Assembly: GCF_900096585.1 (NCBI RefSeq)
Contig: NZ_FMYH01000003.1
Span: 310,001 to 374,000, forward strand
From: Sanguibacter gelidistatuariae
Lineage (GTDB): Bacteria > Actinomycetota > Actinomycetes > Actinomycetales > Cellulomonadaceae
DNA: 64,000 nucleotides
Reading direction: 5' to 3'
In this document: in pieces, positions 21,186 to 60,827 of the stretch
Layout of the letters: every line of letters starts with the position of its first letter
Numbering within the stretch: the stretch's first letter is position 1
Notes under the pieces: generated by a model
Seen by the model: the letters and a program-made list of their open reading frames with translations, nothing else
What the model was told of the DNA's origin: nothing
Database searches by the model: none
Program-made: the position numbers and the translations under genes

Positions 21186-21962
21186 ATGCGCATCGACGTC
21201 ATCTCCATCTTCCCGGACTACCTCGCACCGCTGAGCCTCTCCTTGGTCGGCAAGGCGGCCCAGTCCGGTCTGCTCGAGCTCGCCGTCCACGACCTGCGCA
21301 GCTGGACCACGGACCGCCACCGCACAGTCGACGACACGCCTTTTGGGGGAGGGGCCGGCATGGTCATGCGCCCGGACGTGTGGGGCGCGGCCCTGGATGA
21401 CGTCCTGCAGCCCGGTGGCACGCTCATCGTCCCGACCCCCTCGGGGGAGACATTCACCCAGCGGGTCGCGGAGTCGCTCGTCATCGAGTCCCAGCTGGTC
21501 TTCGCGTGCGGGCGCTACGAGGGCATCGACGCGCGCGTGGCCGAGCGTCACCGCCAGGGGGGTGGGACCGTGCGGGAGATGTCGATCGGGGACTATGTCC
21601 TGAACGGCGGGGAGGTCGCCTCCCTGGTGATGATCGAGGCCGTCGCCCGGCTGCTGCCCGGGGTCATCGGCAACCCGGCCTCGCTCGTGGAGGAGTCGCA
21701 CGGCGAGGCCGGGCTGCTCGAGTACCCCGTCTACACCAAGCCGCCGTCGTGGGCGGGGCTCGATGCCCCCGAGGTGCTGCTGAGCGGTCACCACGCGAAG
21801 ATCGTGCGCTGGCGCAGGGACCGGGCGATCGAGCGGACCCTCGACCGCCGACCGGACATGATCGAGGCGCTCGACCCGACCACCCTCGACAAGGCCGACC
21901 TGGCGCTGCTCGCCGGGCACGGCTGGTTCCCGGGTTCCGACGGGGCCCTGCGCCGGTCTTGA
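21186..21962 (+). CDS. trmD: tRNA (guanine37-N1)-methyltransferase TrmD
   Basis: SAM-dependent enzyme forming m1G37 in tRNA, which prevents +1 frameshifting. It has 258 residues of the SPOUT fold. Landmarks are [39 protein letters not shown] and [13 protein letters not shown] (the SAM-binding trefoil knot). Adjacent to rimM with no gap. Confidence 0.96.
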
Positions 21963-21987
21963 CGCTTGTCCCGGCCCCGGGATGTGG

Positions 21988-22186
21988 CAGAATGGCTCCT
22001 TGGTGTGTGCTGGACCGGACTCTGCCACAGGGGTGTCCACCTCAGCACGTGCACCTGCCTGACACGACGGACTCTCGAGCTCGCCGTTGTCACGGCCGGT
22101 GCGGATCCGACCTCATCTGCTGAATCGGCGGCGCTCTCGCGCGGCCCACAACACGTTCCTGACCTGTGGCAGGGCGGGGAGAACAC
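21988..22186 (+). promoter_or_regulatory. rplS promoter and long structured leader
   Basis: CAGAAT (21988–21993) is the likely −10. The leader of about 190 bases is closed by a perfect 10-bp long-range pairing: CTGCCACAGG (22022–22031) with CCTGTGGCAG (22163–22172). The right arm ends a few bases before the Shine–Dalgarno sequence. Inside is a bulged hairpin, TGACA/ACGG (22060–22070) with CCGT/TGTCA (22084–22092). The geometry suits autogenous control by L19. Confidence 0.55.
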
Positions 22187-22546
22187 ATGAAAACGCTTGA
22201 CAGCGTCGACGCAGCATCGCTGCGCAGCGACATCCCGGCCTTCCGTGCCGGCGACACCGTGAAGGTCAACGTCAAGGTCGTCGAGGGCACCCGCTCTCGC
22301 GTCCAGGCGTTCCAGGGCGTCGTCATCTCCCGCCACGGTGGCGGCGTGGGCGAGACGTTCAGCGTCCGCAAGATCAGCTTCGGTGTCGGTGTGGAGCGTA
22401 AGTTCCCCATCAACGTCCCCTCGATCGAGTCCATCGAGGTCATCAGCCGCGGTGACGTCCGTCGCGCGAAGCTGTACTACCTGCGCAAGCTCCGCGGCAA
22501 GAAGGCCAAGATCAAGGAAAAGCGCGACGCGTTCCCCTCGAAGTGA
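22187..22546 (+). CDS. rplS: 50S ribosomal protein L19
   Basis: Protein at the 30S/50S interface. It has 119 residues, the normal length, with the signature [23 protein letters not shown] and the basic C-terminus [25 protein letters not shown] 22187 follows GGGGAGA. It is transcribed from its own promoter, with a long leader and two terminators downstream. Confidence 0.96.
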
Positions 22547-22552
22547 CGTGGC

Positions 22553-22581
22553 GCCCGCGCACCGGTGACGGTTGCGCGGGC
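22553..22581 (+). terminator. First terminator hairpin after rplS
   Basis: 9-bp stem (22553–22561 with 22573–22581), starting six bases after the rplS stop. No U-run. Confidence 0.65.
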
Positions 22582-22636
22582 CCGCTGAGCTTCGCCGAGC
22601 GCGTCGGCTGACGCGCGGGGCAGGCCAAGCACGATC

Positions 22637-22675
22637 GACGACGGGCGGTCACCTTCTAGGTGACCGCCCGTCGTC
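22637..22675 (+). terminator. Second, very strong terminator after rplS
   Basis: Perfect 18-bp stem (22637–22654 with 22658–22675) and a 3-base loop. It isolates rplS from lepB. Confidence 0.85.
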
Positions 22676-22762
22676 GTCCCCGCGAAGGCGTGGCCGGGAC
22701 GACGACGGGATGGGCCGGAGCGGCCGGGTGCGTTCGATGAATGGGTCGAGAGGTGGCACAGT

Positions 22763-60640: not shown

Positions 60641-60827
60641 GTTCGGTATAACTGAGTTACGCCTGAACACGCTCCACCCACTCCGGTCCGTCTCGGATGC
60701 TCTCGTTCGGTCCTCGGTAGTGGTTCCCGGCAACAGTGCGCTCACGCGCCAGACCTGTTCCGTGAACCTCGATCGAAGACCGCCAGGGCACAGCGCGGCG
60801 GATCCTTCGTCAAAGAGGAGGGCACCC

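Follow-up and report, generated by a model that had tools for sequence, protein, structure and literature searches.

A covarying two-hairpin leader with a predicted kissing loop upstream of rplS in Actinomycetes, a probable feedback switch for ribosomal protein L19

Introduction

The leader that separates trmD from rplS in Sanguibacter gelidistatuariae raises the question whether the synthesis of L19 is governed by the structure of its own mRNA. In the window, i.e., the whole stretch of 64,000 nucleotides that was analyzed here, trmD ends at 21962 and is followed on the forward strand by rplS (22187–22546, start codon ATG at 22187). The latter encodes bL19, as indicated by a match to Pfam PF01245 (E 9.9e-47) that is the sole one in this genome. 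An initial annotation proposed that the leader is closed by a 10-bp pairing and that L19 binding would hide the start of rplS. In the available text of PMC10931766, the regulation of the rplS operon is described as unknown even in E. coli, and the available text of PMC8470358 calls r-protein control in Actinobacteria almost unstudied. A leader of this kind offers exactly defined pairs that could be disrupted and rebuilt in harmless laboratory actinobacteria. It is also a case in which the tertiary contact itself displays clear compensatory changes.

Sample of rplS Upstream Regions

The upstream regions of rplS were taken from the own genome and five other genomes of the same genus, from the best 80 loci of a genome-contig scan, from 60 loci obtained in two Pfam searches of the order and class samples, and from 80 fetched stretches. 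From the 198 order genomes 90 upstreams were used and from the 196 class genomes 50, chosen in listing order and then spread over families. Together with the window (L001), the 225 loci amounted to 226 upstreams, of which 221 were distinct; L222 was dropped, as no start was found. Two position matrices that are blind to pairing, one per arm, were trained iteratively from one seed each, and a score above 5 on both was required for acceptance. Both arms were accepted in 170 of the 221 upstreams, which are referred to as anchored leaders. The 51 others fell below this cut and were excluded from the covariation counts, some of them (e.g., Leucobacter loci) plainly carrying matching loops.

Anatomy of the Leader

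The arms CTGCCACAGG (22022–22031) and CCTGTGGCAG (22163–22172) are exact reverse complements, as the initial annotation had read them. Taken alone, this match is only mildly unusual, since, of 2000 dinucleotide shuffles made from the 191-nt leader, 37 contain complementary 10-mers that are separated by 20 nt or more. The fold of the single sequence has a z-score of -1.47 against shuffles, and its minimum-energy form contains the long 10-bp duplex.

Each arm lies largely in a hairpin loop. The first hairpin, P2, is formed by 22017–22023 and 22032–22038, with one U-U mismatch at 22021 in S. gelidistatuariae. It corresponds to the internal bulged hairpin that had been noticed before, and its loop takes up most of the first arm. 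This loop 1, GCCACAGG (22024–22031), consists of an unpaired G and a 7-nt kissing sequence (22025–22031). The second hairpin, P4, pairs 22157–22161 with 22170–22174 around loop 2, ACCUGUGG (22162–22169), in which an A is followed by the 7-nt partner of the first kissing sequence (22163–22169). The first base of loop 1 is G in all 165 aligned rows, while that of loop 2 is A in 153, G in nine and U in three of them. A duplex of the two 7-mers is predicted at -11.0 kcal/mol, so that the loops can pair unaided. P4 ends one base 5′ of the Shine–Dalgarno region GGGGAGA (22176–22182, read from the sequence), which bears out the earlier remark that the second arm adjoins the ribosome site.

A further helix, P1, is present in the consensus fold of five leaders from the same genus and in those obtained for two sets of relatives. 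Its 5′ strand (GGUGU and GUGCUG, 22002–22012) pairs with CAGCAC and GCACC at 22043–22055, around a two-base bulge at 22049–22050. Class-wide support for P1 is weak, as a P1-like helix is found in 130 of the 170 anchored leaders against a shuffled rate of 0.60. Upstream of P1 lies a putative promoter core, TGTGGCAGAAT (21983–21993), with the -10-like hexamer CAGAAT at 21988–21993 and a predicted transcript start near 22000. A generic sigma-70 scan reported no promoter at 21983–21993. The promoter core also contains TGTGGCAG, the same eight letters as in the second arm at 22165–22172. This repeat is probably a promoter feature, because similar promoter letters also occur in relatives that have no leader.

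Covariation of the Stems and the Loop–Loop Helix

Compensatory changes in the two arms, which had been named as a sign in favor of the leader, were found in many relatives when rplS upstreams were compared, and the pairing is kept in close relatives. For the helix between the arms (nine positions, 167 distinct rows), 98.3% of the cells are standard pairs, against 93.8% (SD 0.2) in shuffled rows. A double change is seen in 58 cells, whereas shuffled rows average 10 such cells and never exceed 18. Both stems covary as well. P2 is paired in 86.9% of cells versus 71.7% after shuffling, with 158 double-change cells versus a mean of 64 (maximum 81). P4 (nine pairs, 158 rows) is paired in 72.4% versus 56.7%, with 295 double-change cells versus a mean of 154 (maximum 181). 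The three helices were additionally scored jointly in an alignment of 83 rows picked for diversity. Here, 86.3% of 1743 cells are paired, against 42.5–53.5% in slid versions of the alignment, and double-change cells number 281 against 127; on each of five measures, all 500 shuffles score lower. The kissing pairs reach 98.6% in this alignment. A local hairpin inside the first arm, CUG-CCA-CAG, was tried and rejected, as its 88.8% of paired cells is no more than in shuffles and only three cells show a double change.

These results bear on one explanation of the arm match, i.e., chance complementarity in GC-rich DNA. The 37 shuffles with a match of equal length would agree with it, but covariation over many families refutes it, and its probability is negligible. 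The comparative evidence lifts the 10-nt match far beyond chance.

The same alignments show where the pairing stops. Over 165 rows, it ends at the loop edges: the next positions never pair, or do so in at most 53% of rows, with the exception of two positions whose pairing is dictated by the stems. The outer pair 22022:22172 is the one that is standard in just 53%, and the next two pairs of the 10-bp stem are accounted for by P2 and P4. The part of the original proposal that stands is thus the pairing of two 8-nt hairpin loops over 7 bp; the full 10-bp closing stem was rejected as the conserved unit. As judged from these comparisons, the conserved unit is a pair of hairpins, probably joined by a 7-bp kissing loop.

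A two-state switch, in which the arms form either the long 10-bp duplex or, as the alternative state, the two hairpins, so that the helices are mutually exclusive, has to be weighed at this point. Covariation of all helices would be equally expected from such a switch, and S. gelidistatuariae does have the 10-bp complementarity and shows the long duplex in its minimum-energy fold. However, beyond the seven loop pairs only positions fixed by the stems pair, and two 8-nt loops that each start with a 5′ purine followed by seven matching bases suit a kissing complex. We therefore regard a two-state switch as distinctly unlikely.

Variety of the Loop Sequences

All seven loop positions are paired in 157 of the 170 anchored leaders, in 139 of them by Watson–Crick pairs throughout, and ten different fully Watson–Crick pairs of loop 7-mers occur. 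The remaining 13 leaders have five or six loop pairs, mostly owing to a U-U at one column. When upstreams were scanned for hairpin, loop length and complementarity only, 131 of the 221 real sequences were found, against 30 of 1105 shuffled ones.

In one family, f4, a scan that is blind to loop sequence, at slightly looser settings, found quite different yet matching loops in 11 of 15 loci. The loop pairs are GCCGCAUA with AUAUGCGG (or GUAUGCGG), GCCGCAUG with AUGUGCGG, and GCCGCGCA with UUGCGCGG; their kissing 7-mers include CCGCAUA/UAUGCGG and CCGCGCA/UGCGCGG. In this family, loop positions that are fixed elsewhere have been altered in step.

The changes were also placed on trees. For the two variable loop columns, a TrmD plus L19 tree (86 rows) offers 4 and 8 supported independent cases of change, of which 4.0 and 5.4, respectively, run in the expected direction and none in the opposite one, and mismatched-column controls on this tree give about one in the expected direction. 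No single test on this tree reaches p 0.05 at its median, because few independent pairs are available. On a tree of L19 only (115 rows), the supported pairs were too few to tell.

Position of the Hairpins in the Transcript

The two hairpins differ in what they are held close to. Among the anchored leaders, the start codon follows the second arm at a distance of 9–24 nt (SD 2.5), whereas the loops are separated by anything from 40 to 187 nt (SD 26.3). A loose -10-like pattern is present in 160 of the 170, its end lying at a median of 25 nt (quartiles 24–26) 5′ of the P2 window. By these steady spacings, P4 is linked to the initiation of translation, and P2 to the predicted transcript start.

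Such a placement bears on transcription attenuation by the second hairpin, an explanation suggested by a hairpin located in the leader before the gene. It is very improbable, given that no terminator-like site was found in 21900–22700, that P4 is followed by the Shine–Dalgarno region and not by a U tract, and that P4 keeps a conserved spacing from the start codon.

A leader peptide was likewise considered. The leader in the window has no ATG before rplS, in agreement with the initial reading that it encodes no peptide. A GTG or ATG near the 5′ end occurs in 96 of the 170 anchored leaders, with frames relative to the loop divided as 43, 28 and 25. Since all three frames are used and none is common to the leaders, a conserved leader peptide was discarded.

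Distribution and Link to rplS

Within the order, the leader is present in 18 of the 19 sampled families (78 of 87 sequences). Other orders of the class are represented by 31 sampled families, of which 18 have it (23 of 49 sequences) and 13 do not. Among rows that carry no family code, i.e., the window, its genus and the best 80 loci of the contig scan, 69 of 85 have it. The leader is therefore not restricted to relatives of the Micrococcales type, among which the initial annotation had suggested a comparison.

Two groups of upstreams deviate from the common form. L046, L160, L162, L184 and L209 have a good loop 1 and no aligned loop 2, which is shifted or altered; they are possible degenerate or variant leaders. 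In four loci of family f21 (L121, L129, L130 and L136), no kissing leader is seen upstream of rplS. These share the blocks GAACCGG and CCAGGTTCCTCT, which are partly complementary and possibly belong to a different L19 leader.

To place the element in whole genomes, a covariance model (R1) was built from P2 and P4. It matched at E ≤ 0.1 in 84 of the 196 class genomes, once in each, under stricter filters by which weak matches are lost. All 84 matches lie directly upstream of rplS. This was established by tblastn of L19 in fetched loci for 31 (own genome included) and a further 20, and by coordinates for 33, which lie on the same contig and strand as the L19 match, 19–32 nt 5′ of it. The own genome has its best match at rplS, with a modest score of 37.6 bits (E 0.049); two weaker matches follow at E 4 and 6, and no L19 gene was found in their loci. 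In the phylum sample of 198 genomes, the 11 model matches all belong to the same order or class, as far as a model that may miss divergent copies can tell.

Proposed Mechanism

Loops that are kept complementary, together with a second hairpin set against the ribosome site, argue that the rplS leader probably acts as a feedback switch in L19 synthesis, of a kind that is not yet listed. We propose that transcription starts just 5′ of P1 and yields a 5′ domain that bears P2, followed some 130 nt further on by P4, directly before the Shine–Dalgarno region. A kissing contact over seven bases of the two 8-nt loops would lock P4 against the ribosome site and block loading of the 30S subunit. If this contact opens, the weak P4 stem would yield and translation could start. 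Free L19, when in excess over 23S rRNA, would bind and stabilize the kissing complex, thereby repressing its own synthesis.

The choice of L19 as the ligand is inferred by analogy with other r-leaders. Possibly the kissing structure governs translation or mRNA stability of rplS with something other than L19 as its ligand (another factor, Mg2+, temperature, or none), since what comparison establishes is the structure and its position, and the loops can pair by themselves at the energy given above. Nevertheless, the confinement of all 84 model matches to rplS is what product feedback would lead one to expect, and known r-leaders use such feedback, as far as the available text of PMC7247131 goes. 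Control of this kind without L19 is considered unlikely.

A copy of the motif in rRNA was also searched for. The 10-mer UGACCUGUGG, which comprises the P4 loop and a flank, is found at a single place in the 23S rRNA of this genome (L266). We know of no L19 contact at this site, and the match is probably a coincidence. No convincing copy of the motif was seen at any rRNA site known for L19.

Altogether, it is quite likely that the element is an L19 leader that acts by translational autoregulation through a kissing loop. The hairpins, the pairing of their loops, the spacing to the start codon and the link with rplS follow from comparison; repression at the level of translation, with L19 as the ligand, would complete the scheme by extension. 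The initial proposal of an L19 autoregulatory leader is thereby upheld as to a structured, covarying leader before rplS and revised as to its geometry, that of a 10-bp stem. A broader reading is more tentative, with chances slightly below even: the leaders may form an undescribed class of L19 leader across much of the class, in which L19 would recognize the shape of the loop–loop contact more than the letters in it. The loops could then have drifted into a dozen or more matching pairs without loss of the switch.

Comparison with Known Systems

In E. coli, the leaders of L20 (rpmI) and S4 (alpha operon) form pseudoknots near the ribosome site that are stabilized by the r-protein; they concern other genes and have other architectures than the rplS leader. 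For L19 itself, Rfam includes a family, L19_leader (RF00556). Its covariance model did not match the leader in the window or in 20 further loci. More generally, no Rfam family matched the region in the window at E up to 10, and these 20 loci gave only three unrelated weak matches at E up to 1. Elsewhere in the window, at 60706–60784, Rfam recognizes an Actino-pnp RNA (RF01688) with 59.5 bits, above the gathering score.

The L19 leader of this family is that of Firmicutes and Flavobacteria, the extension to Flavobacteria being stated in the available text of PMC7247131. Like the actinobacterial element, it precedes rplS and is predicted to serve L19 autoregulation. As far as that text goes, neither the 20 new motifs of the same paper nor its Table 1 include an L19 leader from actinobacteria. 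Table 1 does include leaders of L17 and L31 from actinobacteria, which are, like the rplS leader, predicted r-leaders of this phylum (PMC7247131). The words L19 and rplS are absent from the main text of PMC2864571 as available. In the open-licence literature no actinobacterial L19 leader was found, and a report in print elsewhere is possible.

A likeness also exists to the S15 (rpsO) leader of Actinomycetales, for which a kissing-loop pseudoknotted structure is described in the available text of PMC4137082. According to the accessible part of PMC8470358, mycobacterial S15 exerts feedback at translation for which the pseudoknot is required, and a kissing-loops form that hides the Shine–Dalgarno region has been proposed for the S15 leader of M. 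tuberculosis. The two systems differ in gene and ligand, and the S15 case is experimental whereas that of rplS is comparative only; they are likened here by description. The S15 leader thus provides a precedent for kissing loops in r-leaders.
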